Part shown: positions 8,884-48,276 of the stretch, one piece after another
Numbering within the stretch: position 1 is the first letter of the stretch
How the letters are laid out: each line of letters starts with the position of its first letter
Assembly: GCF_035083965.1 (NCBI RefSeq)
Contig: NC_089725.1
Span: 32,553,024 to 32,617,023, forward strand
Direction: 5' to 3'
DNA from: Branchiostoma lanceolatum
Taxonomy: Eukaryota > Chordata > Leptocardii > Amphioxiformes > Branchiostomatidae
Length of the DNA: 64,000 nt
Notes under the pieces: model-generated
Database searches by the model: none
What the model saw: only the letters and a program-made list of their open reading frames with translations
Told to the model about the DNA's origin: nothing
Made by a program: the position numbers and the translations under genes

Positions 8884-8970
8884 AATAAGTTGAAGGTTTA
8901 CCGAGTCCGTGCGGTTGAAAACGTCCCACTTAACATCACTGTTCCTTTTCCCCTCAGTTGGAGCTGCACC

Positions 8971-17303: not shown

Positions 17304-17408
17304 TCACTTCCGCCGTTCCTGGCTGCGGCGCTGCGGGGCCTGCGCATGCGCGACTCGGTTCAGCTCGTCCTGTAGCTCCTGCTGAGCCACCAGAGCGTCC
17401 AGCTGCGC
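17304..17408 (-). CDS. CHGA-like: Granin exon 9, conserved C-terminal motif
   Basis: Phase-0 exon with acceptor TCTCGCGCAG. It encodes residues 546-579: AQLDALVAQQELQDELNRVA, then HAQAPQRRSQERRK and TGA. An alternative AG six bases in would remove only A and Q. This is the position of the PROSITE-type granin C-terminal signature. The exact pattern is not met, but ELNRVAH followed by an RR matches the chromogranin A end. Confidence 0.85.
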   Translation of the reverse strand, partial: AQLDALVAQQELQDELNRVAHAQAPQRRSQERRK

Positions 17409-20400
17409 CTGCGCGAGAAATTGGGATGTGTCTATTAATGTCATCTGACTATGCCAACTGCATCCTGGAAAAAAACTAAGATATGATACTACAAAAGTTA
17501 CTCGAGCAATTGGATATATTTTATAGACAGTCAGACGTCTCAGACAGCGTCCACTGACTTCTGCAGTTGCTTGAGTAACTTTTGTACTGTGTATTTCATT
17601 ACCTGGACGTCTGACCTTCATCGACGTATCAAGATATAACAATTCATCTAACCCCATGTCACTGACATGCCTTGATTTACAATGTTGTAACCTACCGCTG
17701 ATTCTATGAATATTTACAGTATGCCCATAGTATAAAAATGCTTCTTTTTCTCTTTTTCCCTTGATATGTGTTTCCTACTGCAGACAAAGATGTAAAGTAA
17801 GAATATGTTGGTCATTACAAACTTACCACAGTGTCGTCCTTGTTGCCACCGCTGCCGTCAGCTTGGACTTCGCTGCTGTCTGTGCTCTCGTTACTCTCAT
17901 TTTTCTTTTCCTCCTCCTCTTCCTCCTCCTCCTCTCCTCCCCCTCTCCGCTGGATGTTGTTGATGTCTTCCCCGTTCGCTTTCTGGTCGCCGCTGGCCTC
18001 GTCGCTCTGGCTGGCTCCCTCGGCTGACTCGTAGTCTGGTGCTCCGTTCCCGCGCTCCTCCTCAGGAGACCCCTCCTCTTCCTCAGGTGACTCCTCCCCT
18101 CGCCGCTCCTCCACATCATCCCCGTCTCCTCTCCGCTCTTCATCTTCCTCCTCTTCGTTATCATCTGCCTCATCACTATCTTCTTCCTCGTCTCTTTTCT
18201 CCCCCTCATCCGCTTCTCCATCGTCATCTCTCTTCTCCCCCTCATCTTCTTCATCATTTTCATCTCTCTTATCATCCTCCTCATCTTCGTCTGAATCTTC
18301 ATCTCTCTTATCATCCTCATCTTCGTCTGAATCTTCATCTATCTTATCATCATCATCATCAACGTCGTCGTCGTCGTCGTCCTCCTTCTTCTCCCCTTCA
18401 TCTTCTTCTCCATCATCATCTGTCTTATCATCATCATCACCATCCTCATCGTCGTCATCTTCATCTCCTTCTTCTCTCTTATCACCATCATCATCGTCGT
18501 CGTCGTCATCATCATCTTCCCTCTTTTCCCCCTCATCTTCTTCCCCGTCATCATCCCTTAGTTTCAACTCCTCTGATTGCTTCTCTTCGTCCTCTTCCTG
18601 TGATTCCTCGTCGCTTCTCGTCTCTTCTTCTTCCTCTTCTTCTTCATCACCCTCCTCGTCACCGCGTTCATCTTCTTCTTCATCATCCTCATCATCATCG
18701 TCATCTCCTTCATCGTCATCCTCGTCTTCTTCATCGCCTCGACGATCGTCCTCTTCCTCACTTGGTTCCTCTTCTTCCCGTTTGTCATCCTCTTCATCTG
18801 ACCTCGTCTCTTCATCTCCATTGCCCCCTGTTTCAAACAAAACATTTCATCAACATGCTGAAACACGCACAGGAACTCAATACCAAAGTTAATGACCATT
18901 CTTGGTAGGCATTGCATTACTTAAAAACAAAATTCACTTTCAGATAAACCATCGGGCAACTCCAGATTTGAAAAGCATAATCGGGCCACCGGAGACAGAG
19001 GCTGAAAACAGAGCGTGCTGGAAGTCTAAGGGCCACCCACGAAGGCCGTCAGATATGGGACATATCAGATACCAACCACATAATGAGAGGAATCAGGATG
19101 TTCTGACATCGAACTTAAAGCAAGAAATCACCTTCCTCTGCCTCGTCCCCAGCGTCTGCCTTGGCGTAGATCTGAAAGTCCTGTCGGGTCTGCTCGGGGG
19201 CATCGTCCTCCAGGTCATCGTTCCCCGCGAGGAACTCATCCTCTGCGCTGTCTGTAAAACACAGGGAAAGTGAAGGTAATATCGATCCATTTTAGCTCAC
19301 GGAGGAGCTGTTCTTCCACTGGTTGTGACAGAGAAGACAGACGCTTTGTACATCAGTTACAGGTTCATTGTACTGGAGACTTTCCCCTAGATCATTTAGA
19401 GTACAATGGGCAGTAGACCACGGCTTATCGTCCCGTCCTAAGGACTGCAACCCTGTCCGGTAGCGTGCATGTCGGGTGAGTAACAACCGGGATCGAACTC
19501 CCGGCTTCTAGTTCCAGAGGCAAGGCCGCAAACCACTGGACTATGCGAGCTACCTCTCAGCTGAGGCCCGGTCACATACGTCCTGACATCGTCGTACGAT
19601 TACAAACTTAGGGATGGTCGTGAATATGTCGAGCAGCTGTCTGGTTACGGACAGGGCTATCTTAGATCCTTGTCGGCGGCTGCTTTAGTCACGGTCTGCT
19701 TGGAAACTCTACGGCATCAAAATCGTACGACGACCCACGACGAATGTGAAAGAAGAATGAATTTCGGTACATCCCGACGTTTGTGTATAGGGCTGATGCA
19801 TCACAAGAAACGGGTCTTTTAACTTCCACTGCTACGATGCTAATCAATACACCAGTCTGCCAATACATCGGAATCCATTGGTATTTTTGGTACAAACGCC
19901 AGTGGCTCTACGTATCTTACGTTAAACAATCTGATCTTGAACCAAAATGGTGCCGACCAAAATACTCTCCAACAAGAGAGCTCAGCGGAGTTGCTTACCT
20001 CTGTCCTCTACATCTTCTTCATCCGACCGCAGGTCCACCTGTCCGTCATCCCGGGTACTGGCGGCCAGCTCTGAAAAACAGCAGCAGCACCAAAATAACA
20101 CCAATAACAACACCACGAGTACGTTGGCGAATGCCAGGTAAACAATATTTAAAGACAACTCAGCCTCTACAACTGGATAAGATTCGGAGATTACTTCTGG
20201 GCGTTTCGAATGACATCCACCACTCTTCTTCAGCGTCACTAGAATGAACTGGCAGAACACAGCAAGACTAGTACATGAGATGTAACAGGAGGAAACTGTT
20301 GAATGCTAACTCGTAAACATCGTATATGAAAGTAGGAGTGTGTGGAGTTCACAAATGATGGAGTTGAAACTTGCAAGGCCGCAGCTGTTTCATCAGCACA

Positions 20401-23400
20401 ACCGGCCGTCTTAGGTCAGCTTCTCATACCGAGCGTTCTGCCTTATCATACGATGGGAGCATACATCAATTCATAATAAACTGTTTGCAAATAGCATAAC
20501 AAAGCTGAGAATCAGTGCACATTGCTTAGAAGTTGAAAAGGGTCGACACCACAACACACCAGCCACTCAGAGATTGTGTCCCACATGTAATGGAGGTGTT
20601 GAAGATGAATTCCACTTTGTGATGAATTGTCCAACTTATAGCAAAGAGAGAGATATGCTTTTACAGAATATTACTACTAAGACAAACTTCACCCTATTTG
20701 GTACACAGAGCGATATTTTCTATGTACTGTTGTCATGTCCGACTCCTATATCCATGTACATAGGTCAATTTCTCCATAAATCATTCGAAAAGCGAGACAG
20801 AATTACCCATACATGACTATATATATAACAAATACACTAGTTTCGAAAATATTTTGTAATTAGAATTGTAGGATAGATTAGCCTTGTAGTATTGTTGATT
20901 TCATGCCATACATCGTACCATGTACGATTGTTGAGCAATAAAGTTCACTTCACTTCACTTCACTTCACTTCACTATGAAGTCTGAAGCAGCGAGGTTTGT
21001 TTTGCATGGATCAATGTTGGCGTGTGACCGTGCAATGCCGTTGTTTCTCATCATCAATGTGATTGGGGATGATTTCAGATAAAGAATGCTGCCCTATTAT
21101 ATTACATCAGCCCTCTGGTATGAGAATCTACCCCCAAAGATAATCCCCATCTTCTATTGTCCTTTTCTCTTCTGTAGCAATATCTTTATCCGGCTGGCCT
21201 ATCTTTGCATCGTTATAGATGAAAAAAGCTGGGGGCAATGTTACCATGTTTGTGCTCAGGGTCTATGTAAGCCATGGTGGTACAGACATTACAGCTAGAT
21301 ATAATTCAGTTGTAACTTAGTTTGGCATCATTGGGCCAAACTAACTTAAACACCAGAGGTTTTGTCCATTCTGTCCAAATGAGATTGAAGATGAACGACA
21401 CTTTATCCTAGATTGTCCACGATATCATGATAAGCGCTCAAAGCTGTTCAACCTTATTTCCGCTTGCTCAGCAGAATTTGATACATTCCAGTCTATAGAT
21501 AAATTCAAATACATTCTAGGAGACAACCCTTACTGTGTACAAATAGGTAAATATATCAAAGAATGTTTAGATCTTAGAACTAGTAGTGAAAGTGATAGTT
21601 TAAACTCGACATGTTGAAGTATTCATATATTTGTTATACTTGTCGCTGTACTTTTGTTGTGTCAATAAAGATTTCTATTTATGTGGCGGAATGCCACTTG
21701 TAAGCCTGAAGGACAGCAATAACAGAGAGATGAGGACCCTTTAAGGAGGTAGAAGTGGACTTAGTTTTGAGAGTACTTTTTCATGGAAAACTAGAATGTG
21801 CTTTGCCGTTGTAGTGAGGAGAGAAAAGTTGACCGTTTTAATGAGAGGACACGACGAGCCCAGCCAGGCAGAAAACAAGTGTAGGACGCGGTTAGTAGAG
21901 AAGGGCAGGAGTTAGAAGGGACATGTGGTCTATTTAAACCATTGTCGTAAAATTATGAGTGGTTTAAGGAAGCATGATTTTATCAGTGAGGTAACATTCA
22001 ACTGAAGTGTTTGATATGTCGATGGTGGTTAGACATCCAGGTAGAAAATAATGTCATACAAAATGAATAAATCAACACATCCTCTTAAGAGTCAGACGTT
22101 TCAGATAGCATCCACTATCTTTCATCGGTTTTACATGCAGCACACAATGCTCAGTCATCCTACAAGATGTTCTTAAAAAGTACGTGCAGAATTGCAGATT
22201 GTGGATTCTCATGTCCAAAAGTCATGCAAGTCAAACGTCTATGACAACACCGTGCAGTCCAGGGTCTAGGGGAAGGGAGATGTGTTAAAGGATCATGCGG
22301 ACAAGATGTCTAGCAATAGGTGCTTGGGGTGGGGATGGGAGGGGGTATCATTGAGGAGAGGTTGAGTTTGTGGAGGGGTGTTGAGAGTGGTGGGTTGTGG
22401 AGGGGAATGGAGAGAGATGGGTTCGGCTGGGGTCTGAGGTGGATTTGGGAGGCATTGTGGAGAGGGTACGGTGAGGGGGTGTTTGTCCTAAATGCTGCCT
22501 GCCCGTCGCGCGCGTGTCCTCACCTGGCCGGCCCATGTTCTGCAGGAGCTCCTGGAGCACCTGGTGATCATGCTCCACCTGCCGCAGCATCGTCTGGATC
22601 GTCCCCATCACCTCCAGCTGACTCTTACCTACCAACACAACCGGTATGTTACTGGATCGTCCCCATCACCTCCAGCTGACTCTTACCTACCAACACAACC
22701 GGTATGTTACTGGATCGTCCCCATCACCTCCAGCTGACTCTTACCTACCAACACAACCGGTATGTTACTGGATGGTCCCCATCACTTCCAGCTGACTCTT
22801 ACCTACCAACACAACCAGTATGTTACACTCACCTGTGGTGCGGCTACTTGCGATCTCATAACTAGTTGTATAATTTTTGATGTAATATAAGTGTAACTTA
22901 CATGAATGATACTATTTGAAGTAGTATTCTGCTGATCATTTTCTATCCATCTAGCCATCAATTAAGTGTTTAAAGAAAATGAATGTCATGACAAAACAGG
23001 TGTTGCCACCTTTTAATTCTACGCCGCACATACCACAATCTAAACTTTTTTTGATATTTGACACTTGTCAGTTTGAGACCTGTCTGCAGCAGATGGCCCT
23101 ACTTTACTTATCTTCCTGAAGGGGCAAAGCCCTGTGTCCCGACACCCCTATGTTAAGGTTTGGGTTAGGGTTAGGGTAAGGGTAAGGGTAAGGGTAAGGG
23201 TAAGGGTAAGGGTAAGGGTAAGGATTAGGGTTAGGGTTAGGGTTAGGGTTAGGGTTAGAGAGTGTTGAAAAATAGGGGTGTCGGAACAAAGGGGAGTAAT
23301 CCTAACTGATACTCGTCAGGCCAGTGGCCTCACCTTTCTTGGCCTGTTCCACTGCTTTGAGCACCTCGTTGGCATCGGGGATGAGGTCCTCCTCCACGGC

Positions 23401-26400
23401 ACCTAGCGACTTCAGCTGGTTCAGCAGCTTCTCGTTCTTCATCAGGTCAAAGATGCGGCCATCTGAAATACAAACAGGTAACGTTGGCATCAGGGTTTAA
23501 AACTGGGTGGTGGAAGGAAGGTCTTGAGGTGGGGTGGTGGTTGTACGGTACACTTCAGGTGCTGGGACTGCAGCTGTCTCGTTCTTCGACATTCCTCAGG
23601 GCAAAGGTCAAAGATGCAACCTTCTGGATGATGCGGTAAATAATGGCGCAAATGTCGTGTTAGCGATACTTGTAGATAGTGGTGCATAGTGGGGGTGTAG
23701 CTCAAAGTGTCGGATAATATACCGTTTGCGATATATTTATTTTCAGGCAATCCTTCCTAGAAACCGCACGTTGTTGCCAATGAACGACAAGACAAACACA
23801 CATAACGGTAACATATATATATATATAGCACATAAAATCACGTGACGTAAGGAGGAACGTGCATAAGAAGTCACGTGATGTGACGTTAGACGCACCTTTA
23901 GCGATGATCTTCTCGCACTCCGGGTCGGCAGGTGTGGTGACCTTCCTGAGGTGAGAGGTCACCAGCTCCACGATACAGGCCGTCACCTGGGGAGGAGGAC
24001 ACACCTTTGTTAGAAAGTGAAAGTGTTATCGAACTAGTTTAGAAGAGCTAATCTTCCACTGGTCGTGACAGGGAAGACAGACGTTATGTACAGTATTTAC
24101 AGGTTTATTTATATACACCGGGGAAATTCCCCTAGCTCTTTTCGATAAACACAATGAACAGCGGAGCAGAGCTTAACGTCCCGTCCTAAGGACTGCGACT
24201 TTTCCCAGTAGTGCGCATGACGGGTGAGCCAGCTGGGATTTGAACTCCTAAACTCTTGGTCCAGATGTAGGATCGCTAACCACTGGACCACGCACGCTAC
24301 AGACAGGAGCCAACACACAGCACTGGGCACTTTGGGTTTGGAAAGTCACTAGGAAGCAGGAAAACCTTTTTGCACGGATCAAACTATTAGGGAAACCCAA
24401 TTCTCCCGTCTTGTAGTTGTTTGCTACCCAGCCTCACGTTGTAAATGTAGGGAGAGCTGCTAGGGGCGCTGTTACATCACGTAAATGTAGGGAGAGCCGC
24501 TAGGGGCGCTGCCACATCACGTTGTAAATGTAGGGAGAGCCGCCATGGGCCCTGTCCCGTCACACTGGAGCCTTGCCATTCAGTTAAGTATAGCGGGTGA
24601 GGACAAAAGTCCGAACACCTTCATCCACACCGGGATATAGACAGACAGACAGGAGTATAGACAGAACGAAAGTGTGTGTTGGGGGGGGGGGGGGGGTGCA
24701 TATTTCCCAGCTGCTGTTTTTTCATTTTTTTGTAGAAATGGTCCCGGTCACATTACAAGATCACGCCCCGTGCTTTAAAATAACATCACACATGAGTATC
24801 AGTCCGGTCACCTATCTGAGATGATACGAAGGGACGCCCGGGTGGTTTAATATCAGATATGATGAGTATCAGCCCGGTCACATATCTGAGATTATACGCA
24901 GGGACGCCTGGGTGGTTTAATATCAGATATGATGAGTATCAGCCCGGTCACGTATCTGAGATGATACGCATGGACGCCCGGGTGATTTAATATCAGATAT
25001 GATGAGAATCAGCCCGGTCACGTATCTGAGATGATACGTAGGGACTCCCGGGTAGTTTGAAATCATATGTGATGAGTATCAGCCCGCTGCCGCCATGACG
25101 GATGAGCTGATGTAAAGGAAAGGAAAGGAAAGTGATCTCGATCAGGTTTAGCTCCTGAAGAGCTATTCTTCCACTGGACATAAGAGAGAAGTCAGACTAG
25201 AATGGAAACATTTTCGGGAAAATGCAGAATATTCCCCTCCCATTACCTACACCTCAAATATAACATCCTTAGCATTGACTGTAAGGATATGACAAAGTTT
25301 GTGCATAAATTATGCAAAGGAGGTCGGCATTAGCATAATGTATGGCCAGGTGTGTTCGGCCTTTCCTAAAGGTACCTACATCTCAAATATGACATCCGTG
25401 CTTTTATGGTTAGGGATATGCATAAATTATGCATAATGCACTCATTAGCATAATTTATGGCCAGGTTTTCTGACCTTTCCTAAAGGTATCTGCATCTCAT
25501 CCGTAGCCTTTACAGTAAGGGAAAAAACAAGTTTATGCATAAATTATGCAGATGAGGTCCGCATTAGCATAATTTATGTACAGGTGTGTTCACCTCTCCT
25601 AAAGGTACCTACATCTGAAATATGCCATCCGTAGTCTTTACGGTAAGGGATATACATACATTATGCAAATGAGGTCCGCATTAGCATAATCTATGTACAG
25701 GTGTGTTCACCTCTCTTAAAGGTACCTACATCTGAAATATGTAATCCGTAGTCTTTACGGTAAGGGATATACATACATTATGCAAATGAGGTCCTCATTA
25801 GCATAATTTATGTCCAGGTGTGTTCACCTTTCCTAAAGATACCTACATCTCAAATATGACATCTGTAGCTTTTACGGTAAGGGAAATACAAGTTTCTGCA
25901 TAAATTATGCAAATGAGGTCCTCATTAGCATAATTTATGGCCAGGTGTGTTTACCTTTCCTAAATTTATCTACATCTCAAATATGACATCTGCAGCTTTT
26001 ACTGTAAACGCAATACAAGTTTTTGTATAAATTATGCAAATGATGTCCTCATTACCATAATTTATAGGTACCTACATCTCAAATATAACATCCGTACATT
26101 GTAACATAAGGTACATATAACTTGCTGCAATACCATTAGTAGAGCTACCACCGCACATCTACTTGGTTTTTGGCAGAAGAAGAAGAAAGAAGAAGAAGAA
26201 GAAGAAGAACAGGCAAGCAAAAACAGTATATCCCCCTTCCCACTGGAAGGGGAATATAATTATGTATATATTATCTACATGTTCATTGCACCGGGGAAAT
26301 TCGACAAGCACAATGAACAGTGTACCACAGCTATAAAGACAGCGACCCTTTCCGGTAGCCTGCATGTCGGGGGATCAAACTGGCGGCTTCTAGTTCCAGA

Positions 26401-29400
26401 GGCAGGGCCGCTAACCACTGGACTACGCACTGATGTAGCCGTACTGACGGATGAGCTGGTGTAGCCTGGATGCTGGCATGATGGAGCAGTGCTGCCGGAC
26501 TAACGGATGAGCTGGTGTAGCCTGGATGCTGGCATGATGGAGCAGTGCTGCCGGACTGACGGATGAGCTGGTGTAGCCTGGATGCTGGCATGATGGAGCA
26601 GTGCTGCCGGACTGACGGATGAGCTGGTGTAGCCTAGATGCTGGCATGATGGAGCAGTGCTGCCGGACTGACGGATGAGCTGGTGTAGCCTAGATGCTGG
26701 CATGATGGAGCAGTGCTGCCGGACTGACGGATGAGCTGGTGTAGCCTGGATGCTGGCATGATGGAGCAGTGCTGCCGGACTGACGGATGAGCTGGTGTAG
26801 CCTAGATGCTGGCATGATGGAGCAGTGCTGCCGGACTGACGGATGAGCTGGTGTAGCCTAGATGCTGGCATGATGGAGCAGTGCTGCCGGACTGACGGAT
26901 GAGCTGGTGTAGCCTGGATGCTGGCATGATGCATGATGAATGACGGGGTTGTCGGCTGCATCTCAGGAGCAGGATTACCTCAGCGGGTGCGCGGCAGGTC
27001 AAGACCTTTGCTCCACGCACCATGGCTGACGTGCACTCCAGGTTCCTTCGACCACGCCAAAGCTCCCCAGTCGTCGTTGGTTACACGCCTTTCCCTCTAG
27101 GTGCCGCGACCGCCGGGCGACCGCCGGGCGACCGCCGAGCGACCGCCGAGCGACCGCCGAGTGACCGCCGAGCGACTAAAAACTTGACAGATCGCTGAAC
27201 GAATAGATAGATAAAGATTCATAGATAGAGAACAATCTTATGTTTTGAGATAATTTCTCATCTTGCATCAGATTTTCAATTGCAATTATAAAAAAACAAG
27301 GGTCGCACAAATAGCGGACGCTCATCAGCGGTCGCTCAGCTTCGTTTAGTGTAAAATAATCTCTGAACAGATAAGATCTTCCTCATGCAAAATCGTAACC
27401 ATACAGGGCTGATTTCCAAGGGAGCACATAATAGTGGAAAGCATTTGATAGTGGACAGGGATCCAGGCCGTCAGTTCCCATCGTGGAGGACGTGAAAAGA
27501 TTCGTCAGTTCAGTTCCGGAGAGGATTGCTAACAAGCAGGACATTTTATCTAATGTGAGGCAGCAATAAGGAAGCTTGATACAGAATCGACTGCCCGGCG
27601 TCCGGATCGATGGAGAAGAAACGAGGCACCCGCCGTGTGACGTAAATCTGCCGAGTCTTAGCCGTGACCTTCGGGCGGGTGGAGCCCGTATTCAGGGCAC
27701 GTGTAACATGTAACCTGAGACGCCACGTGTAACATGTAACCTGAGACGTCACATGCAACAGGTAACCTGAGACGTCATGTGTAACATGTAACCTGAGACG
27801 TCACGTGTAACATGTAACCTGAGGCGTCATGTGTAACATGTAACCTGAGACGTCACGTGCAACATGTAACCTGAAGCGGGTTATGATTTATACAGGCTGA
27901 TGGGTTGACAAATGAAGGAAGTTTTGGACATTTCTTTGGCCCATTTTTCAACGCTGGCCTTCCTCCCTTCCGTCACGATGTCTCTCAATATTTGGTAGGC
28001 GAGCAATCAGAAACGGTTCGTAATTAGCCCAAAATCCAATTAAGATATTGAGCGGGAGCCAGAAGCGGTTTGCAGAGCAGGGGGAGAATGCGGTGTCAAA
28101 CCAGAGTGGAGTAACTGAGCACCGTCGTTATTCTCTGTGGACGCTTTTGTGAAATTAGATTGAAGTCCGTGCAGCGCGATGCGGGGTCAAACTGGCGGGA
28201 GCACCCTGGAGAGCACGTGACGGGCACGTGACCGCATTCTGCCAATCACGCGGGCCGGCAGCTGTGCATGAAATATTGAGGGATCGACTCCCGTGGCACG
28301 AACGGTAAATTGTTGGGCCTCACTTATGTGCGTGTCTGAAGTCAATATTTCATGCGAGGATATGAATTTCTGAAAGAAAGTGTAGCTTATGACTTTGCTA
28401 CGGCGTAAATCCCATCCAGCAGGTTTTATTCGCTTGCGTGAAACAAGCAAGCACCGCAGTCTGTTGATTTGGCCATTCTGATTTGATTCCATGGGTGACA
28501 TCATCTGGGGACACCAAAACTGATGCTAACGTGCGAATTAAAAAAATTTGGCCAAAAAAGGTGCCTTCATTATGAAATCTACGTGGCCAGGAAGGTTGAA
28601 CAAATGACTTAACAGACAGGGAATGGTAAACCAAATCATGGATTCTTCATTTTTGTTACTTGACTTCTTTGACTATGGCCTTCATTAGTATCCATTTTCC
28701 GAAATATCTGTTTGCAATTTACAGCATATATTTGTTCATTTTGTAGATGCTTTGCATGATTTACAGTATGGCAGAAAACTTTGTTTTATTTTTGGGCAAA
28801 TGGACAAGAATTGATGCGCTCGCGGGTGTCACCTATATAATCAAATCAACATGGCCTTACTTCCAAACGCAAAAGATTGGTTACTGTTTCCATTGTGTTT
28901 TAATGTGTTAGCGCTGGGCAGCCGTTAGCTAATCAGATACTTCAAAATTAACGCAAGAAATACTTTATACCCCATAAACCACGACATGAGCGGCAAAACG
29001 TTTCTCCTCTGTTTTATTCAACTCTGGTAGACAAACGCTAACCTCAACCAGGCCTTCCCACGGGGGCACGGATAGTAGAATTCGGCAAAAAGGGGAATAA
29101 GTGGCCAAGAGACTAGGTCCGCGGGAACCCTGCGGTGGATAAACTCCTCTGGCAAATATTCTCCCTACAGCCAGCGTAGAATATGAGGGGTCGTGGTTTC
29201 AAAAAGACCAATGGTAAACTCTTACTGGTAAACTGCCAGAGTATTCGAAACAAAAAAGCCGAACTGGCGACTGTAATTGACACGTACAAACCAGATATAA
29301 TAGCAGGCATAGAGTCATGGCTCAATCAAGACATAGCAAGCAGTGAGATATTCCCTGACAACTACATAGCTCACCGTAAAGATAGACAGACTGGCCCTGG

Positions 29401-35400: not shown

Positions 35401-38400
35401 TAGTAGGTGGTTATATCTATTACAAGGAGGGGTTGCTAGCCCTTCCCCTTTAACATGCTCAAGGCACCTCCTCGAATACGGGGCCCCCATTTTACGTGCC
35501 TTCCGAAAGACGGGTGCAGCCCCAGCCAAAATGTCCTGGCCAGGATTGACCCGGGGTCCCCCAGTTAGTAACTAATTGGAACCAGGAACTCACATATGAG
35601 GCCACTACCAGAGATCCCTGAGTTTTCTAAGTCAATGGCGAAAGACAGCGGATGCTGTCTGAAACGTCTGTTTCAAAATTGTATCCAGTTGCTTGAGTAG
35701 CTATTTTGGCGTACCTTATTACCTGGATGTTAAACATTCGTCAACGTATCCCTTAGTTTTGTCTGTTTGTGGCTGATATAGTATTGAGATAGTCGCTGAT
35801 GAATCCAGTTAATCGCTGAATATGAATCATACAGAGGAGCCGAAATGGCGGATAAGGACTAGGGAGAATTGTCCGCCCTGTACTTCCAGTGCTTTTCTTT
35901 CCACTACCGAGCCGAGGCCGGCTGTGATCTATCACCTCCGGCGCAGCGAGCCGTGAACAATATGGCAAAGGGCACGAACGTTATGAGTTCATCATGGCGA
36001 GGGCGGGTTACTGCAGACCAGCGGAACGGGACTGGACTGGCGGGGAGGGCGGGTTACTGCACACCGGCGGAACGGGACTGGACGGGCGGGGAGGGCGGGT
36101 TACTGCACACCGGCGGAACGGGACTGGACGGGCGGGGAGGGCGGGTTACTGCACACCAGCGGAACGGGACTGGCGGGGAGGGCGGGTTACTGCACACCAG
36201 CGGAACGGGACTGGACTGGCGGGGAGGGCGGGTTACTGCACACCAGCGGAACGGGACTGGACGGGCGAGGAGGGCGGGTTACTGCACACCAGCGGAACGG
36301 GACTGGCGGGGAGGGCGGGTTACTGCACACCAGCGGAACGGGACTGGACTGGCGGGGAGGGCTGGTTACTGCACACCAGCGGAACGGGACTGGACGGGGA
36401 GGGCGGGTTACTGCACACCAGCGGAACGGGACTGGACGGGGAGGGCGGGTTACTGCACACCAGCGGAACGGGACTGGACGGGCGGGGAGGGCGGGTTACT
36501 GCACACCAGCGGAACGGGACTGGACGGGCGAGGAGGGCGGGTTACTGCACACCAGCGGAACGGGACTGGACGGGCGGGGAGGGCGGGTTACTGCACACCA
36601 GCGGAACGGGACTGGACGGGCGAGGAGGGCGGGTTACTGCACACCAGCGGAACGGGACTGGCGGGGAGGGCGGGTTACTGCACACCAGCGGAACGGGACT
36701 GGACTGGCGGGGAGGGCGGGTTACTGCACACCAGCGGAACGGGACTGGACGGGGAGGGCGGGTTACTGCACACCAGCGGAACGGGACTGGACGGGCGAGG
36801 AGGGCGGGTTACTGCACACCAGCGGAACGGGACTGGCGGGGAGGGCGGGTTACTGCACACCAGCGGAACGGGACTGGACGGGCGAGGAGGGCGGGTTACT
36901 GCACACCAGCGGAACGGGACTGGCGGGGAGGGCGGGTTACTGCACACCAGCGGAACGGGACTGGACGGGCGAGGAGGGCGGGTTACTGCACACCAGCGGA
37001 ACGGGACTGGCGGGGAGGGCGGGTTACTGCACACCAGCGGAACGGGACTGGACGGGCGGGGAGGGCGGGTTACTGCACACCAGCGGAACGGGACTGGCGG
37101 GGAGGGCGGGTTACTGCACACCAGCGGAACGGGGCTGGACGGGCGGGGAGGGCGGGTTACTGCACACCAGCGGAACGGGACTGGACGGGCGAGGAGGGCG
37201 GGTTACTGCACACCAGCGGAACGGGACTGGCGGGGAGGGCGGGTTACTGCACACCAGCGGAACGGGACTGGCGGGGAGGGCGGGTTACTGCACACCAGCG
37301 GAACGGGACTGGACTGGCGGGGAGGGCGGGTTACTGCACACCAGCGGAACGGGACTGGACGGGCGAGGAGGGCGGGTTACTGCACACCAGCGGAACGGGA
37401 CTGGACGGGCGAGGAGGGCGGGTTACTGCACACCAGCGGAACGGGACTGGACGGGGAGGGCGGGTTACTGCACACCAGCGGAACGGGTCTGGACGGGCGA
37501 GGAGGGCGGGTTACTGCACACCAGCGGAACGGGACTGGACGGGCGGGGAGGGCGGGTTACTGCACACCAGCGGAACGGGACTGGACGGGCGAGGAGGGCG
37601 GGTTACTGCACACCAGCGGAACGGGACTGGACGGGCGGGGAGGGCGGGTTACTGCACACCAGCGGAACGGGACTGGACGGGGAGGGCGGGTTACTGCACA
37701 CCAGCGGAACGGGACTGGACGGGCGGGGAGGGCGGGTTACTGCACACCAGCGGAACGGGTCTGGACGGGCGGGGAGGGCGGGTTACTGCACACCAGCGGA
37801 ACGGGACTGGGCGGGCGGGGAGGCAGGGTGCTCACTCGGAGTGTAGAGGGTGAGAGGCAAAGCGGGTGGGAGGATGACGTGCTGGTTTGAAAGATAAGCC
37901 TTCATAAGGTTGATGGTTCGATCTACCAGAAAACATTAAACTTTGCCATAAAAACACAGTCCGACACTAATACTGGCTCCATGCGGTAGCCTTGGTGGAT
38001 AGGGGGGCTGTAGGGTGGTTGCGTGTGTAAGATGTGTGTAACGTTACTGTAAGATGTGTGTGGTATGCTGTACGTGTGTAAGATGTGTGTACTATGTGTG
38101 AAGCAGGCAGTGCGTGTGTAAGATGTGTGTACTATGTGTGAAGCAGGCAGTACGTGTGTAAGATGTGTGTACTATGTGTGAAGTAGGCAGCGCGTGTGTA
38201 AGATGTGTGTACTATGTGTGAAGCAGGCAGTGCGTGTGTAAGATGTGTGTACCAGGCGGTACATGAACGTGTGTGAGTTTTGTGTACCACGTGTGTGAGA
38301 TGTGTGTACCACGTGTGTTAGATGTGTGTACCACGTGTGTGAGATGTGTGTACCATGTGTGTAAGATGTGTTTACCACGTGTGTTAGATGTGTGTACCAC

Positions 38401-41400
38401 GTGTGTGAGATGTGTGTGCCATGTGTGTAAGATGTGTGTACCACGTGTGTAAGATGTGTGTACCACGTGTGTTAGATGTGTGTACCACGTGTGTGAGATA
38501 TGTGTACCATGTGTGCAAGATGTGTGTACCACGTGTGTAAGACGCGTGTACCACGTGTGAACGTAAGACTGACCTGGTTGGTGGCGTCGTCCGACCCCGT
38601 CCCGTCCGGCAGGGAGAGGTCCAGGGGCGACGGTCTGCCGAGCGCTGAGGAAACACAGGAGCGGCATGTCAACTCTGTCCTTCTACCAGCAACGTTCAAC
38701 ACAGGAGCGGACATGTCAACTCTGTCCTTCTACCAGCAACATTCAGATAGCTTTAGGACTTTACTAATGCAGCAAGTCATTGTGTTATAGACGTGAAATA
38801 TCCATGATCATTTTTAGTCATTATAGTTTGTTTGTAACGGAAGAAAAGTAGCAGCAACAAATTGAATAAGTTTCCCTTCCATGAAATGATTGATAGTCGT
38901 TTGCATATTCATGCCAAGGGGGCTAGATGCACACGTGGTCTAAAGGATGTAAAATACAAAGCATGAAATACTACAATACTACATTCTTATGCTAAATGCA
39001 GTGTATTAAAACATCTATTTACATACTCATGTTAATCTATATACCTATCTCTCATTCTAAACACATGGAAACATAACTGCATACTGTTTCCACTATTTGT
39101 TCACTCGTGCATGACTTCAGGTACTAGAATGTATCCTGCTATGACATTTTCTTACATCTCTTGTCTAATTGAACTGTCTTATATATAAGACGCTTCCCTG
39201 TCTGCGCCGAGGCGCGGTGAAGGCCGCTACAAACGCGGCGTGCTTTGATTGTAATTATGGTCGATCCTTGCAAAGAAACGTACTCAAACGATGCAAAATT
39301 AATATTTGTGCATCAATGTCGAATTTGACATTTTGCGTTTATAGACAAGTCCCATAGAATTACTATCAAGAAGATGCAGCTGCCGCATCTCATGTAATTG
39401 TCGAACCATAAAGTTGAATGAGTAACAAAGTTCTTTATTCACAACCAGATCTCTAACGTTACATCAGCTGACGCCAAAAATAGTTACTCAAGCAACTGGA
39501 TAGAATGTTTAAACAATCAGACGTTTCAGACAGCATCCGCTATCTTTCGTCAGTGACTAAAGAAGGATCTGGTAGAACTAGGTTTTATGCCAAAGCTCTG
39601 AATAGGTATGTTAATGAAGTAAAGACGATTCCAGATGGTTCCATAGAATAGCAAGTTAAGACAAGGTTGTATGCTAATAAAGCAATTAGCTCCTGATGTT
39701 TTAGGAGCTAATGTTGCTCGTCGGGGAGGGGGGCGAGTGCGTTGACCCAAGTGCCTTAAAGTTAGATGCGTAGACCTCCTATCCTGTTGAGGGCGGGATT
39801 GCACATTCTCTCATATATTGCTTCTATAACTCCCCGTTCGAACCGACGCCGTTCGCGGTCTAGGATATCTGTAGATTCTAGATGGAATGAGTGTCCCTGG
39901 TTGTGTTGTGTTGTACATCAGCAGACGTTTCGGTGAGCGTAAGGAATGTGACAGACAGAATTGCCCTGAAGATTTATAGAAGAAGCCTCCCTGCCTGCGC
40001 TGCTGCGCGGTGAAGGCCGCTACAAACACCTGATTTATCGCAGCATAGTGGGTTTAGCTGCGGGCCTGGCGGGGAAGAGTTAGCGGCGCGCTGCCGGATC
40101 GTTACGTGCTGCATTAGCGAAATTGCCACAGCCGCCCCGAACATGTAGCAAATTGGATACCCGTAACCGCGCAAATAGGGTCACCTAAACTCCCGCACCC
40201 TCGCCTGAACCGGAACCGACGCCTGGGCTGCAATAGGAACTTTTACCGCGCGTTTCTGTACGTGGGCCCTGCTAATGGCTGATTCCGTTAAGAGATGTGT
40301 AACTTTCAGCATTGTGTGCCTAACGCGGTGCATAACGGAACAGGCCTAGGTAAAGATAATCCAATAGCCTTTTGTGAGGCTGTAGTGGCAGTGGGTTGTT
40401 ATCCCCTGCGTCTAGGGCACGGTATTGGAAGGCAGAGCCCATCCCTCTCTTTTCACCTCCCCAACCGAGGTCAGGTACCCATTTTTGATTTTTACACCTG
40501 GGTGTAATGAGAAAAGTCGTGTAAAGTGCTTTTACCAAGGACACAACATCGGTTGCATGTCAGGGGCTTCGAACCCAGGACCTCTGGATTCTGAGCCAAA
40601 CACCCTAACCGTTACGCAACACGACTGCACACGCTGCTTACAAATGTTGTATCGCTTCTGTAATGTTACTTTCAATTATTGTTTTGAATGATTATGATGT
40701 TGTGATTTTAACTTACGTTTATTCTTAAAAAATGGTGGTGGTGAATGAAGTTGTGGAAAAAAAATCTTTAAAAAAAAACGACTGCACACGCGGCCCGGGT
40801 ATATAATTTACAGAAACAACACACGACACGAGCCAACAGCCAAAGTCAAAGTTACCGGCTCCCAATTAAACCCTGCCCGCAGCAGCCCGATCAGACACGA
40901 GAGCGCCACGACAGCCTCGCCCCGGGATCCGTTCCCCCAGGAACGAACCTGGAGGGGGCTCTCAAAGAACTAAGTTTAGACTATCCTACGTCTTGTAGCT
41001 CCTAATTGTCTGTCGCGTCGTTCTACCCGCAGCAGCCCGCTAAGATATAAAGGCGTCACGACAGTCCAACCCCGGGATCTGCTCTCCGCAGAAACGAACC
41101 GGGAGGAGCTTCGCCCTCTCAGAAGACTGAATTTAGAATATCCTGCTTCGTGTAGCTCCTAATCAGTCTGTTGTATTGTTCTACCCGCAGCAGCCCGCCC
41201 GCTCAGACATGGAAGCGTCACGACAGTCCAACCCCGGGACCCATTTCCTGCAGTAACGAACCGGGAGGAGCTTCGCCCTCTCACTCTCAGAAAACTAAAT
41301 TTAGAATATCCTGCTTGTTTGTAGCTCATTGCCGTCGTATTCCGTAGTCTGCTGTGTTGTTCAATTAACAAGGAACAAAGGTGATATTTCTGAAGAACGG

Positions 41401-47400: not shown

Positions 47401-48276
47401 AGAGCGCGACTTCAGTATGTTCAAATGTACAGTTTGAAAATACAAATTCTCCTTTGCACGAGAGGCTGCGACCGCCGTGTGAAGAAAAGCACAAACATAT
47501 CGCTCAACACATTTTATGGATAAGAACGATATTTCAGACGATTGGCGTGTTTTGTTGTACTGTAGATCATACTTTTACATCGTGCGTGATATTTCAATTA
47601 TGAAAAAATGAGGGGTCACAGAAATCCAGTTTTATCGCTGTCACAATCGCTCAGCGTTCGCCGTGTAGTGGAAAGGAGGGGTTGAAGTTTCTGGGTGTAA
47701 CGCAGGTTTCTGTTAAACGGAAACCCGGTTTCCTCTGCGGAGACTATACCGCACAGCCCCAGACGTAATCACACCGGCCTTCATCCGAACATCATTTTCA
47801 CTTACGCTGCTCCCAGCTGAGCCTGCTGCGGAATGACAGCCGGGTTATTAGTTTATCTCCTGCGATTTGTATCCGCGGTCCCGGAAAGGACGGGTTCCCG
47901 AGTGACGGGGAACCGGAGGACACACAGCTTAATAACCTTCTCGTGCCGACCCGGCCGGACAGTTGGGTCCGCTCGCGCCGTTACGGACAGGAAACCGCTT
48001 CCCAGGAAAGTTAGTTTGGTGCCGGCGGGAGTCGGGACGGGGCAGACGTGACGCTATACCAGCCGAGCAGGGCGGTACTGAGGTGTGCCTACCTGGGGGC
48101 ACCTGGCAACCGGCGGCGCTTTTGTTGTGACACTGCCCTGGGGCACGGTCCTAACGGTACACCTGTTTAAGAGGGAGGGAAGGAGATATGCAGGTGTGAT
48201 GTACAGGTGTGGTGTACAGGTGTGACTCACCTTGAGACAGGCAGACGAGCAGGAAGGCGAACGTGGCGCGTCCCAT
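17304..48276 (-). CDS. CHGA-like: Granin (chromogranin A/B-like) precursor, 579 aa, nine exons
   Basis: Coding exons (minus strand, 5' to 3'): 48276-48231, 38644-38574, 23986-23896, 23462-23334, 22628-22524, 20070-19999, 19251-19132, 18827-17827, 17408-17304. All have GT/AG borders, and the 1,740 nt stay in one frame from ATG to TGA. Residues 1-16 are a signal peptide (MGRATFAFLLVCLSQA). Cysteines 43 and 63 enclose a loop starting CIVELVTSHLRK, the equivalent of the chromogranin A/B disulfide loop that directs sorting to secretory granules. Then comes DGRIFDLMKNEKLLNQLKSL, which aligns without gaps to the vertebrate segment after the loop. Residues about 165-545 are Glu/Asp-rich with many KR/RR sites, expected prohormone-convertase targets. 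The C-terminus carries ELNRVAH, close to the vertebrate ELEKVAH. Expected role: calcium-binding matrix and peptide precursor of dense-core granules (family knowledge). It could be the CgA/CgB ancestor rather than an orthologue of one of them. Confidence 0.88.
17441..17645. repeat. Dispersed repeat, Penelope-like 3'-end type
   Basis: It lies in the last granin intron. It contains gttactcgagcaattggat, agacgtctcagacagcgtcc, gttgcttgagtaac and ttacctggacgtctgacctt, and its two halves are partly inverted. The same words recur at about 22.1, 35.65, 39.5, 43.25, 43.65, 51.1 and 55.6 kb. Confidence 0.6.
17827..18827 (-). CDS. CHGA-like: Granin exon 8, acidic Glu/Asp-rich exon
   Basis: A single 1,001-nt exon gives residues 212-545, mostly Glu and Asp with Ser, Gly and Lys/Arg pairs. 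Repeats of DEDSDEDEDDKR and EDEGEKRDDD type show it grew by GAT/GAA/GAC triplet and short-unit expansion. At least ten KR or RR pairs occur, e.g. DDKREEEE, DDRRGDEED, EKREDDDD, ERRGDGDD, QRRGGGEE. The last part (SNESTDSSEVQADGSGGNKD) is less biased. The opposite strand is open by base composition alone. Confidence 0.85.
19296..19556 (-). mobile_element. tRNA-derived SINE (family B)
   Basis: Read on the minus strand it starts with gtagctcgcatagtccagtg (A-box like) and has gagttcgatcccgg (B box), then a body with tccttaggacgggacg. Relatives in the same orientation are at 24040-24300 and 26270-26435, all in granin introns. Confidence 0.65.
20190..20250. repeat. Short dispersed-repeat fragment, Penelope-like 3'-end type
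   Basis: gggcgtttcgaatgacatcc followed by accactcttcttcagcgtca: the paired (gaagaag...gaaacg) words often found near the 3' ends of Penelope-like elements. It has no coding capacity. Confidence 0.4.
20470..20975 (+). mobile_element. LINE 3' fragment with TTCAC tail
   Basis: The frame reads LRISAHCLEVEKGRHHNTPA, then LCPTCNGGVEDEFHFVMNCP, the C-terminal zinc-knuckle region (C-x2-C...H-x4-C) of a LINE ORF2. It stops at about 20816. The fragment ends in a (TTCAC)n run at 20945-20974, a microsatellite tail in place of poly(A). The 5' end is truncated. Confidence 0.7.
21349..21675 (+). mobile_element. LINE 3' fragment, related C-terminal domain
   Basis: An open frame to 21617 reads RFCPFCPNEIEDERHFILDC, then PRYHDKRSKLFNLI, and ends LNSTC before TGA. 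It is the same type of C-terminal domain as at 20574, but a different element. AATAAAG follows at about 21666. It lies within granin intron 5. Confidence 0.7.
22524..22628 (-). CDS. CHGA-like: Granin exon 5
   Basis: Encodes residues 113-147, including QLEVMGTIQTMLRQVEHDHQ and VLQELLQNMGRP, probably helical. The acceptor is GTTGGTAG at 22629-22630, the choice that keeps the frame from exon 4. The start of this exon and its acceptor are copied three more times upstream in the intron (see the 58-bp repeat). Confidence 0.8.
22595..22826. repeat. 58-bp tandem repeat spanning a splice acceptor
   Basis: Four copies start at 22595, 22653, 22711 and 22769 (tggatcgtccccatcacctc ... ccggtatgttac). The first copy contains the first 34 bases of granin exon 5 and its acceptor. 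The others lie in the intron just upstream in the gene's direction, and each carries the same acceptor. Confidence 0.9.
23133..23288. repeat. Interstitial telomere-like array flanked by inverted repeats
   Basis: About 100 bp of (TAAGGG)n followed by (TTAGGG)n at 23152-23259. It is bounded by TGTCCCGACACCCCTAT on the left and its near-complement ATAGGGGTGTCGGAACA on the right. It sits 45 bp from the donor of granin exon 4. Confidence 0.85.
23334..23986 (-). CDS. CHGA-like: Granin exons 3 and 4, N-terminal conserved module
   Basis: Exon 3 (23986-23896) encodes VTACIVELVTSHLRKVTT and the second cysteine (DPEC). Exon 4 (23462-23334) encodes DGRIFDLMKNEKLLNQLKSL and LGAVEEDLIPDANEVLKAVE. The junction is phase 1. 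The two cysteines are 20 residues apart (vertebrate CgA, from memory: 21). After the second Cys, the D, R-I, L-L, L and L positions match CgA without gaps. The tail KKGK is a basic processing site. Confidence 0.88.
24040..24300 (-). mobile_element. tRNA-derived SINE (family B), second copy
   Basis: Shares cttccactgg-cgtgacaggg, cgtcccgtcctaaggactgc, a B-box-like gggatttgaactcc and ctaaccactggaccacgc with the copy at 19296-19556. Confidence 0.65.
24440..24560. repeat. Short tandem repeat, about 50 bp, three copies
   Basis: Three copies of cacgttgtaaatgtagggag followed by agccgctaggggcgctg. Confidence 0.75.
24680..24697. repeat. Poly-G run
   Basis: An uninterrupted G run in a granin intron. 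On the gene's sense strand it reads poly-C. Confidence 0.9.
24790..25090. repeat. About 72-bp tandem repeat, four copies
   Basis: Copies of gatgagtatcagcccggtca, cgtatctgagatgatacgca and gggtggtttaatatcagata. Confidence 0.85.
25240..26110. repeat. About 115-bp tandem repeat, seven to eight copies
   Basis: Each unit carries tatgcaaatgaggtccgcat, tagcataatttatg, caggtgtgttcacctttcct and aaaggtacctacatctcaaa. Many units contain ATGCAAAT, the octamer in reverse orientation. Confidence 0.85.
26160..26215. repeat. GAA microsatellite
   Basis: Run of agaagaagaagaagaag. Confidence 0.85.
26270..26435 (-). mobile_element. tRNA-derived SINE (family B), third partial copy
   Basis: gcctgcatgtcgggggatca, ggcttctagttccagaggca and gctaaccactggactacgca match the copy at 19296-19556. 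Its right end runs straight into the 56-bp array, which may have started from this junction. Confidence 0.6.
26443..26935. repeat. 56-bp minisatellite, about nine copies
   Basis: Nearly identical units of ggatgagctggtgtagcctg, gatgctggcatgatggagca and gtgctgccggactgac. Period 56 was measured between 26451 and 26507. Confidence 0.95.
27105..27175. repeat. Short tandem repeat gcgaccgccg(a/g)
   Basis: About six copies of an 11-12-bp GC-rich unit. Confidence 0.8.
27700..27875. repeat. 26-bp tandem repeat, about seven copies
   Basis: Units of gtaacatgtaacctgagacg followed by tcacgt or tcatgt. Some junctions contain CACGTG. Confidence 0.9.
27876..29040. other. Granin intron 2, non-repetitive stretch without exon
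   Basis: No exon or recognised element. The sequence looks ordinary compared with its repeat-rich surroundings. Confidence 0.4.
29041..32126 (+). mobile_element. Near-complete non-LTR retrotransposon (CR1/L2 group-like)
   Basis: An intact endonuclease/reverse-transcriptase ORF (29183-32026) is followed by about 70 bp of 3'UTR and a (GATACA)n tail at 32100-32126. A microsatellite tail instead of poly(A) is usual in CR1/L2-type LINEs. The 5' boundary is a guess. It lies in granin intron 2 in antisense. A 3'-tail-only relative is at 1089-1140. Confidence 0.8.
29183..32026 (+). CDS. LINE ORF2: AP-endonuclease plus reverse transcriptase, 947 aa
   Basis: The protein nicks target DNA and copies the element RNA (target-primed reverse transcription). 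Residues about 11-228 are an EEP/APE-like endonuclease: LLLVNCQSIRNKKAEL, the Glu of GIESWL, GTYYRPPS, GDFN (150-153) and the catalytic SDHD (221-224). Residues about 480-760 are the reverse transcriptase: NYRPVSLTCISCKLLEHII, HGFRAKRSTETQL, ILDFTKAFDKVPH, GVPQGTVLGPLL and the FADD catalytic motif (671-674). The C-terminal part reads YTSLVRPNLEYAATVWDPYT. No internal stop or frameshift is seen, so the copy may be recent. ATG at 29183 is the first in frame. A first ORF (ORF1) was not found upstream. The clade (CR1, L2, Crack or similar) is uncertain. Confidence 0.9.
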   Translation: MRGRGFKKTNGKLLLVNCQSIRNKKAELATVIDTYKPDIIAGIESWLNQDIASSEIFPDNYIAHRKDRQTGPGGGVFQVNRDDLIVTHRPDLDTDCEIIWTQTQLAGKKPLMIGTYYRPPSDQGNSLDELDKSISKMGPKINSDNVIILGDFNTPGINWDASTTDNTQSNSGQAQKLLHLVDNHGLFQTVQEPTRNGNLLDLVLVNNPNIIEKTTVVPGISDHDMVLVDVNLAPKQNRKPKRKVYIRTKADEPAIKSDLSDYATNFNKRTEDMSVTQKWDDFKDKIKHTMNLHIPSKTTSSRYNLPWFNKNLRRHCRKKQRLYNKAKRTGREEDMNKYKRVKKGVQKSIRAAHSKYVADILGEAIIDKPKTFWSYIKGLRRDLVGVAPLKIGNSIVSDSEKKAEALSSQFKSVFTEEDTTNMPTLGQPCTPPMEHIVISPNGVEKMLQGLNPSKASGPDQIPPWFLKMTATEIAPVLTNIFQHSLDTGEIPKDWRDANICAIFKKGDRAVPGNYRPVSLTCISCKLLEHIIHSHVMKHLESFNILTDYQHGFRAKRSTETQLILKAHDIAGALNSKKQVDLAILDFTKAFDKVPHSRLITKLEHYGIQGTTLNWLKAFLTNREQTVVVEGKASSPVRVASGVPQGTVLGPLLLLLYINDLPDQLDSNVRLFADDCLLYIELSTQSDSQLLQEDLNTLEEWQSRWLMQFNPEKCYIMHITNKRNPIVTTYQFCGQALATAKSHPYLGVTLTTGLKWNTHINKVTTKAKQTLGVIKRNLWACPAKVKSLAYTSLVRPNLEYAATVWDPYTKKDIDKLERVQNQAARFCTNNYERGASVTKMKADLQWMSLEDRRTMSRLCMMYKMTNKLVDVPTDKYLMPAQKRTRNSHAFKYQSYQPRIDVFKNSYFPRTIVEWNSLSSSTVGASSLSSFKERLQSDMQRLGVTDRSV
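32580..32960. repeat. Degenerate G-rich tandem repeat
   Basis: Repeated gttagggtatagagtttgg, gacagtggtaggggtag and taccattaaggacgtg blocks. Two longer copies (about 32475 and 32858) share cggttgtaccattaaggacg. Confidence 0.7.
33540..33895 (+). repeat. Short tandem repeat rich in RE1-like motifs (granin intron 2)
   Basis: 12-bp (accacacaatca-gc) and longer units combine into atcagcaccagggacggc. This is one mismatch from the RE1/NRSE 17-mer consensus and occurs several times (e.g. 33606-33621). The first unit, atcagtaccaaggacag at 33544-33560, also has one mismatch. Left half-sites TCAGCACC are very frequent. Confidence 0.8.
34340..34505 (+). mobile_element. Dispersed repeat copy A
   Basis: gggacgtcccacggatagga, ctttaaatgggggtcccgtg and tttgaggaaagccacacaac are shared with 44260-44340. 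Confidence 0.5.
34530..35110. repeat. GC-rich tandem blocks with poly-C runs
   Basis: Two to three copies of a block with gcacgtcccgcgcttccagc, gggcaccacgccgcgcggat and cgaagcgag. It includes uninterrupted C runs at about 34599-34612 and 35013-35038; the latter reads as a long poly-G in granin pre-mRNA. Confidence 0.75.
35630..35757. repeat. Dispersed repeat, Penelope-like 3'-end type
   Basis: aagacagcggatgctgtctg, aaacgtctg, atccagttgcttgagtagct and ttacctggatgttaaacatt. The gacagcggatgctgtc core is a short hairpin. Confidence 0.6.
35995..37830. repeat. GC-rich minisatellite, 41/42/46-bp units, about 42 copies
   Basis: Units of gggcgggttactgcacacca and gcggaacgggactgg plus a variable linker (acgggcgaggag, acgggcgggg, cggggag, ctggcgggg). 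Units of 46 and 41 bp alternate regularly around 36750-37110, giving a higher-order dimer. All three forward frames are open, so the 619- and 673-codon frames are artefacts. Confidence 0.95.
38020..38565. repeat. 24-bp tandem repeat next to granin exon 2
   Basis: Many copies of gtgtgtaccacgtgtgtaag and variants, starting about 10 bp inside the intron after the exon 2 donor (38573). Confidence 0.95.
38574..38644 (-). CDS. CHGA-like: Granin exon 2
   Basis: Acceptor TTTCCTCAG, donor CAACCAG|GTCAGT. Encodes residues 16-39, LGRPSPLDLSLPDGTGSDD and ATNQ: the start of the mature protein and the short spacer before the cysteine loop. The 71-nt length fits the phase-1 end of exon 1 and the phase-0 start of exon 3. 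Confidence 0.8.
39236..39412. repeat. Local duplication, copy 1
   Basis: About 175 bp (ggcgtgctttgattgtaatt, gatccttgcaaagaaacgta, gatgcagctgccgcatctca) also occur at 41398-41572. The preceding word ggcgcggtgaaggccgctac recurs at 40004. Confidence 0.7.
39470..39560. repeat. Dispersed repeat, Penelope-like 3'-end type (inverted copy)
   Basis: agttactcaagcaactggat, cagacgtttcagacagcatc and cgctatctttcgtcagtgac: the same words as at 35.65 kb in the opposite orientation. Confidence 0.6.
40430..40627 (-). mobile_element. tRNA-derived SINE (same family as 8770-8883)
   Basis: On the minus strand it begins gtcgtgttgcgtaacggtta and carries a B box in cctgggttcgaagcccctga. The body contains acacccaggtgtaaaaatc, matching cccaggtgtataaag at 8782. 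Confidence 0.65.
40870..41345. repeat. About 155-bp tandem repeat, three copies
   Basis: Copies start at cccgcagcagcccg (about 40877, 41030, 41186) and contain cgtcacgacagtccaacccc, gggaggagcttcgccctct and tagaatatcctgct. Confidence 0.85.
41398..41572. repeat. Local duplication, copy 2
   Basis: Partner of 39236-39412. Differences are mainly substitutions. Confidence 0.7.
42640..42950. repeat. About 30-bp tandem repeat, ten copies
   Basis: Units of gttagtgcgcgttatttcag and cagctgtccccgttagtgcg. Two sub-types (ccccg, ctcgg) alternate in a three-unit pattern. Confidence 0.95.
43120..43630. repeat. About 39-bp tandem repeat, interrupted
   Basis: Units of cgctccaggaaaaggcccat and gaaaccattacgtattgtc. 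The array is broken at about 43205-43320 by the inserted dispersed repeat (gtttacctagatgtctaacc). Confidence 0.9.
44190..44470 (+). mobile_element. Dispersed repeat copy B
   Basis: Longer copy of the element at 34340-34505: gggacgtcccttggatagga, cgttaaatggaggtcccgtg, tttgaggagaaccacacacc and aagaacccaccacacctctg. Confidence 0.55.
44560..45780. repeat. Satellite-like array, about 85-bp unit, about 14 copies
   Basis: Units of gaacagtataagctgcatat, ccgcacagatgtataactcc, tcgcccatgtctgatctgtg and tgataacaatgttatctacc. Each unit holds the near-perfect palindrome gataacaatgttatc. Confidence 0.95.
45785..45965. repeat. About 65-bp tandem repeat, three copies
   Basis: Units of gaccgatgactggacagtaa, acccccttatctaccctcat and gagtggcgtagtgatgataa, directly after the 85-bp array. 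Confidence 0.85.
46148..46364. mobile_element. MITE with ATACTGTAAAT inverted ends
   Basis: About 215 bp bounded by tatactgtaaattcagaaat and its near-complement catttacagtattta. It is filled with gttcgcg/cgcgaac words in both orientations. There is no coding capacity. A fragment with the same ttcgcggtggttttaaattc words is at about 53770-53815. Confidence 0.7.
46400..48220. other. Granin intron 1, gene-proximal part
   Basis: No exon. It holds poly-G runs at about 46593-46606, 46637-46650 and 46910-46926, and turns GC-rich from about 47700 towards exon 1, consistent with a CpG-rich promoter region. Confidence 0.5.
48231..48276 (-). CDS. CHGA-like: Granin exon 1, signal peptide
   Basis: ATG at 48276, donor TCTCAAG|GTGAGT. 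Encodes MGRATFAFLLVCLSQ, a compact signal peptide with its cleavage point near the exon 1/2 junction. I found no in-frame upstream ATG in the codons just before it. Confidence 0.8.

Follow-up and report, generated by a model that had tools for sequence, protein, structure and literature searches.

A probable chromogranin A-type granin gene in amphioxus, most likely the one ancestor of both vertebrate chromogranins, A and B

Introduction

Chromogranin A (CgA), which assists in packaging hormones in secretory granules, enters the endoplasmic reticulum (ER), is sorted by means of its N-terminal loop, condenses under the influence of Ca2+ and pH, and is cleaved at dibasic sites. To our knowledge, CgA and chromogranin B (CgB) are regarded as vertebrate proteins. 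The gene for CgB, CHGB, has fewer exons than the gene for CgA, CHGA, and secretogranin V (7B2) belongs by sequence to a different protein family.

A role for CgA in the formation of dense-core granules is described in PMC5296320. According to a 2005 paper (PMC1215479), BLAST searches confined the granin SCGIII to vertebrates. Secretogranin V is comparable to the granins in being a neuroendocrine secretory protein, and its sea urchin orthologue is described in PMC6209648. PMC5787515 mentions a chromogranin in connection with a zebrafish-coelacanth rate. Among the open-literature matches listed, as far as their extracts extend, none described CgA or CgB from amphioxus.

Here we describe a locus in a stretch of 64,000 nucleotides of Branchiostoma lanceolatum DNA (the window). 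It is probably a CgA-type granin gene of amphioxus, and most likely the single forerunner of the vertebrate chromogranins A and B.

Results

Nine exons on the minus strand encode an acidic protein

A sequence-only reading of the window had proposed that nine exons join into 579 codons without a frame break. This held exactly, in coordinates and in length: the joined exons run on the minus strand, which that reading had not named, from position 48276 to position 17304, and their translation gives 579 amino acids followed by a stop. All eight introns are of the GT-AG type, with phases 1, 0, 1, 1, 1, 1, 1, and 0.

Exon 1 (48231..48276; all exons are on the minus strand) carries the ATG and the leader MGRATFAFLLVCLSQ in 15 codons plus 1 base, which makes 46 coding bases ending in CAA G|gtgag, and is followed by a phase 1 intron. 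The N-terminus of the product reads MGRATFAFLLVCLSQALG; the leader was judged by eye to be hydrophobic, and cysteines lie at positions 12 (within the leader), 43, and 63. Exon 2 (38574..38644) encodes the mature N-terminus through the codon preceding V40, where a phase 0 intron follows. The loop from Cys43 to Cys63, VTACIVELVTSHLRK...ECEKIIAK, is encoded by exon 3 (23896..23986), which is followed by a phase 1 intron in the codon for D70. Exon 4 (23334..23462) encodes the segment DGRIFDLMKNEKLLNQLKSL, the counterpart of DERILSILRHQNLLKELQDL in CgA, plus a longer tail. Exons 5 (22524..22628), 6 (19999..20070), and 7 (19132..19251) have no CgA counterpart that was recognized by sequence; exons 6 and 7 are acidic. 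Exon 8 (17827..18827) encodes the strongly acidic, dibasic-rich body, and exon 9 (17304..17408), downstream of a phase 0 intron, encodes the C-terminal segment AQLDALVAQQELQDELNRVAHAQ... and the stop. The whole product has 255 D/E and 64 K/R residues, 18 dibasic pairs, and a pI of 4.05. Of the 334 residues encoded by exon 8, 203 are D/E, in agreement with the acidic middle noted in the earlier reading.

At 22594 to 22826, a 58-bp unit present four times places further copies of the acceptor of exon 5, together with the opening bases of that exon, within intron 4. The copies may serve as alternative acceptors, or they may be an artifact of the assembly.

An unnamed protein of Branchiostoma belcheri corresponds to most of the gene model

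We scored residues 1 to 215 against about 5.8 billion proteins, which gave 2990 candidates. At a threshold of E ≤ 1 the sole match was the hypothetical protein Bbelb_346460 of B. belcheri (P0001; E = 1.9e-99, 87% identity), and no vertebrate granin reached that threshold in this search. Bbelb_346460 is, judged by its sequence, the orthologue, already deposited as a hypothetical protein without a name. In B. lanceolatum or Branchiostoma floridae the gene may already be named in the annotation.

Identity to B. belcheri over the aligned residues was 20/21 in exon 2, 30/30 in exon 3, and 42/43 in exon 4 (92 of 94 for these three exons together), followed by 29/35 in exon 5, 21/22 in exon 6, 33/39 in exon 7, 221/275 in exon 8, and 28/32 in exon 9. 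The join from exon 2 to exon 7 is therefore backed by an independent gene model. Because the B. belcheri protein is 87% identical N-terminally, and 92 of 94 residues agree in exons 2 to 4, the joining of the nine exons is beyond what chance would give when the two gene models are compared. The B. belcheri model, of 745 amino acids, also differs from ours. Exon 1 was identical at just 3 of 7 residues because the B. belcheri model opens with an unrelated sequence; that model also has longer acidic repeats, deviates near the end of exon 8, where a different stretch precedes the C-end, and has KARRLQ within the last segment. It does not corroborate exon 1, the end of exon 8, or part of exon 9.

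The Cys loop and the segment after it match CgA

BLASTP against gorilla CgA gave an alignment spanning the loop and the next segment (37.7 bits; single-comparison E = 1e-7). When residues 18 to 150 were aligned to gorilla CgA by the Smith-Waterman method the score was 88, and the top of 5,000 shuffles was 71. The loop, with the acidic body, is also shared with CgB: the same residues scored 67 against human CgB, and no shuffle among 5,000 exceeded 59.

We built a profile of the vertebrate CgA N-terminal domain from 229 CgA proteins, which were among the Pfam Granin matches listed (120 of 683 and 120 of 126). The pattern was present in 219 of these and 10 were dropped; 31 domains remained at 90% identity, a few mis-spliced isoforms among them. 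The amphioxus protein scored 21.2 bits with this profile, a value that none of 100,000 shuffles reached (top, 16.1 bits; the 20,494 shuffles that HMMER did not report were counted as below the observed value). As controls, B. belcheri scored 20.1 bits, human CgB, a true relative, 30.1 bits, and the reversed protein 1.5 bits. HHalign against the CgA profile gave a probability of 91.5% and a score of 37.6, compared with at most 15.3% and 21.6 for 200 column-permuted profiles. The two-Cys N-terminal loop claimed in the earlier reading is thus upheld by the 21.2-bit score, the shuffles, and HHalign. That reading had also named what would count against it, namely, that neither end of the protein scored above other sequences; the Cys-loop end scores clearly in the CgA profile.

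The same reading had placed the D-x-R-I...LL..L..L segment in ungapped register with vertebrate CgA. This is correct for the segment after the loop, where DGRIFDLMKNEKLLNQLKSL aligns with DERILSILRHQNLLKELQDL without a gap, but the loop itself is one residue shorter than in CgA: 19 residues lie between its cysteines both in this protein and in B. belcheri, compared with 20 in all 219 of the pattern-matching CgA proteins among the matches listed. Human CgB, the one CgB sequence compared, has no clear counterpart of the segment.

The Pfam family model Granin (PF01271; cut-off, 25 bits), which was built from known members, gave no match at E ≤ 10, whether to the full-length protein, to its first 211 residues, to the products of exons 8 and 9 taken separately, or to the reversed sequence. 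A 52-residue excerpt covering the loop region and the protein of B. belcheri likewise went unmatched. Human CgA (444 bits), skate CgA (49.6 bits), and bichir CgA (59.2 bits) were matched as controls. The missing match lowers the likelihood that the protein is a granin without excluding it. The profile search recommended in the earlier reading for the joined protein was accordingly positive with the CgA N-terminal loop profile but negative with Pfam Granin. Its expectation that annotation can overlook such a gene was justified, both by the failure of Pfam Granin on this protein and by the B. belcheri entry that has no name. A search of NCBIfam, a prokaryotic library, with the granin protein gave no match. 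The N-terminal part found no match in the PDB, where human CgA as the query retrieved just two peptide entries.

Introns 1 to 3 share codon and phase with those deduced for CHGA

The exon borders of vertebrate CHGA were deduced from isoforms and read-through models among the 229 listed CgA proteins, not from gene records. The resulting phases are 1, 0, 1, 1, 1, 1, and 0, compared with 1, 0, 1, 1, 1, 1, 1, and 0 here, so that amphioxus has one additional phase 1 intron. Introns 1 to 3 occupy the identical aligned codon and have the identical phase in the amphioxus gene and in CHGA as deduced. By our own arithmetic, the chance that 8 random introns among 1,737 positions would match three given ones is about 6e-8.

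For CHGA intron 1 there is a single model, lemur P0047, which continues past Q15 as GERARG, consistent with CAA G|GT GAG and phase 1; this gives CHGA an exon 1 of 46 coding bases, the same as here. Intron 2 is placed in phase 0 by models that have unrelated sequence before the V of V-M-K-C (15 of 216 on a count by eye), and five of these 15 replacements end in Q, the residue expected from a CAG acceptor. Intron 3 is placed in phase 1 inside the codon for D63 by tuatara P0217 (LKG-GTIS) and by three dog-family models, P0086, P0102, and P0162 (LRG-GT-DERI); cattle P0228, which skips to GAKER, agrees, and P0201 is an unexplained exception. Exon 3 has 91 coding bases here, versus 94 deduced for CHGA.

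Three bird models, monkey P0005, and four models that skip exon 5 put CHGA intron 4 at codon 86 in phase 1, and many models that skip exon 6 give phase 1 for introns 5 and 6. For the last intron, P0013, P0076, P0196, P0207, and P0228 have a V past the final E, as expected of a GT donor in phase 0; the read-through of P0050 differs. P0121 would require another frame, and we regarded it as a prediction error rather than as intron evidence. The last amphioxus intron has the same phase as that of CHGA and lies just before the C-terminal segment, with a two-residue offset relative to ELxxVA.

The C-terminal segment resembles that of CgA weakly

The C-end reads ...DELNRVAHAQAPQRR... here, ...AELEKVAHQLQAL... 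in mammals, ...SELENVAQKLHELRKG in gar, and ...DELNNVAQAPQRR... in B. belcheri, which has ELNNVAQ at the place of ELNRVAH. Aligned to gorilla CgA, the C-end gave a score that 279 of 5,000 shuffles reached, a weak match; against human CgB its score was no better than that of shuffled sequence (3,950 of 5,000). With a profile of the CgA C-end, 767 of 50,000 shuffles reached the observed score (4,612 that HMMER did not report were taken as below it), compared with 699 of 50,000 when B. belcheri was set against its own shuffles and 200 of 50,000 for human CgB. With the alignment anchored where the last exon begins, the score was reached by 49 of 5,000 shuffles here and by 526 of 5,000 for B. belcheri. 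The C-terminal ELNRVAH noted in the earlier reading is present, but its likeness to the CgA C-end is weak, equaled by about 1 to 6% of shuffles against CgA and by 79% against CgB. ELNRVAH is suggestive and by itself proves no homology; its position after a phase 0 intron fits CgA.

Other features of the window

Intron 2 contains a LINE-type retroelement at 29180 to 32023. It lies on the plus strand, opposite in orientation to the granin gene, and has an open frame of 948 codons in which Pfam finds endonuclease and reverse transcriptase domains. In the same intron, a G+C-rich minisatellite at 35992 to 37850 has a unit of about 41 to 46 bp (a 92-bp reference recurs in 41 overlapping copies), and an array of the GTGTGTA type from about 38034 to 38574 extends to the end of exon 2.

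Synteny with CHGA was considered and was uninformative in a Pfam scan of 10 selected open frames in the window, nine of them flanking. At the right edge, an exon on the plus strand (63070 to 63426) encodes a glutamyl-tRNA synthetase fragment (Pfam tRNA-synt_1c, 57 bits; PDB glutamyl-tRNA synthetase, 3.5e-21) and probably belongs to an EPRS-type gene that continues past the window; we take it to be no neighbor of CHGA. Two further plus-strand frames had no Pfam match: 8797 to 9180, which encodes MKLSVCTLVTMVVIAMLIDDSDAWFWQRKKC... and resembles a small secreted Cys-rich peptide, and 13073 to 13348, which combines a hydrophobic stretch with a region rich in proline and an RR site and may be an exon from the gene for a secreted peptide precursor. 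Retroelement pieces lie on the plus strand at 3754 to 4512 (zf-RVT, over the Pfam cut-off) and at 10692 to 11300 (DUF6451, under the cut-off). Scans of the window for prokaryotic promoters and tRNAs gave nothing useful.

Discussion

The loop, the segment that follows it, and the introns carry the case for a CgA-type gene; the C-terminus and the composition do not. Homology with CgA is supported by the protein comparisons, and the positions and phases of the introns are independent support. Shared with CgA are the Cys loop with its CIVE motif, the D-x-R-I...LL..L segment, a body rich in acidic residues and dibasic sites, and, as deduced for CHGA, the codons of introns 1 to 3 and the phase series; ELxxVA near the C-end is a weaker likeness. 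There are also differences from CgA: the loop is one residue shorter, exon 4 is longer, there is an extra phase 1 intron, and neither a pancreastatin nor a catestatin region is recognizable by eye. Among the 147 listed CgA proteins of more than 350 amino acids, the D/E fraction has a median of 0.23 and a maximum of 0.30, compared with 0.44 here, and the median pI is 4.68, compared with 4.05. Human CgB differs in being without the segment after the loop, and its C-end compares with exon 9 no better than shuffled sequence does.

The relationship to CgA and CgB was judged from about 50 alignable residues of the shared domain, too few for a tree, and with a single CgB sequence in the comparison. 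One alternative is that the gene is an orthologue of CgA alone, the CgA/CgB split having preceded the split between amphioxus and vertebrates and CgB having been lost in amphioxus. The match of the segment after the loop to CgA and its absence from human CgB (one sequence) are in keeping with this, as is an exon-rich structure that resembles CHGA, but loss of the segment from CgB after a vertebrate duplication explains the same observations equally well and is the simpler account. We consider a CgA-only orthologue improbable.

It is likewise unlikely that the gene is real but has been given the wrong ends, with another first exon that lacks this leader or a different join between exons 8 and 9. 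The extra copies of the exon 5 acceptor, and the differences of the B. belcheri model at its N-terminus and in the stretch before the last segment, would agree with such an error; however, no leader is visible by eye at the start of the B. belcheri protein, and exon 1, in its 46 coding bases and its CAA G|gtgag end, is like exon 1 of CHGA as represented by P0047. That the protein is an unrelated secreted acidic protein of the matrix or mineral-binding type, granin-like by composition and a chance pair of cysteines, is also unlikely, since, for all that its D/E fraction is far above that of CgA (0.44 against a median of 0.23 among the 147 listed) and that neither a Pfam Granin match nor a vertebrate granin in the database search was obtained, the signal sits in the nonacidic exons 3 and 4 and exceeds 100,000 shuffles and 200 permuted profiles, and three introns share codon and phase with the deduced CHGA introns (about 6e-8 by chance).

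We therefore return to the reading of a CgA-type granin. That the CgA/CgB type predates vertebrates, as the sequence-only reading had it, is made probable by the N-terminal loop profile and the intron positions and phases; the C-end, which that reading also invoked, is suggestive. Going further, we think it somewhat probable that amphioxus has a single, preduplication chromogranin with the intron skeleton of CHGA, that CgB is the derived, exon-losing copy, and that chromogranin-driven formation of dense-core granules predates vertebrates.

By analogy with CgA, the amphioxus granin would act in the regulated secretory pathway. Its leader would direct it into the ER, and a disulfide loop between Cys43 and Cys63, together with the adjoining segment, would mediate self-association and binding to the trans-Golgi membrane. 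The very acidic product of exon 8 may bind Ca2+ and condense at the low pH of the trans-Golgi, and the condensed body would then help to form dense-core granules and retain peptide cargo. Convertases would cleave the dibasic sites, with the release of peptides.

The sequence-only reading was largely right: the gene is probably a member of a known family, a CgA-like granin, in an unexpected lineage beyond the vertebrates. With a member at the chordate level, the chromogranin type would be older than the genome duplications of vertebrates. The ancient parts would be the leader exon, the Cys loop, the next segment, the acidic body, and probably the C-end. Amphioxus would permit tests of the granule-forming role that are free of the redundancy between CgA and CgB. 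If the proposed ancestry is true, granule formation by a chromogranin is older than the adrenal medulla and the vertebrate pituitary.
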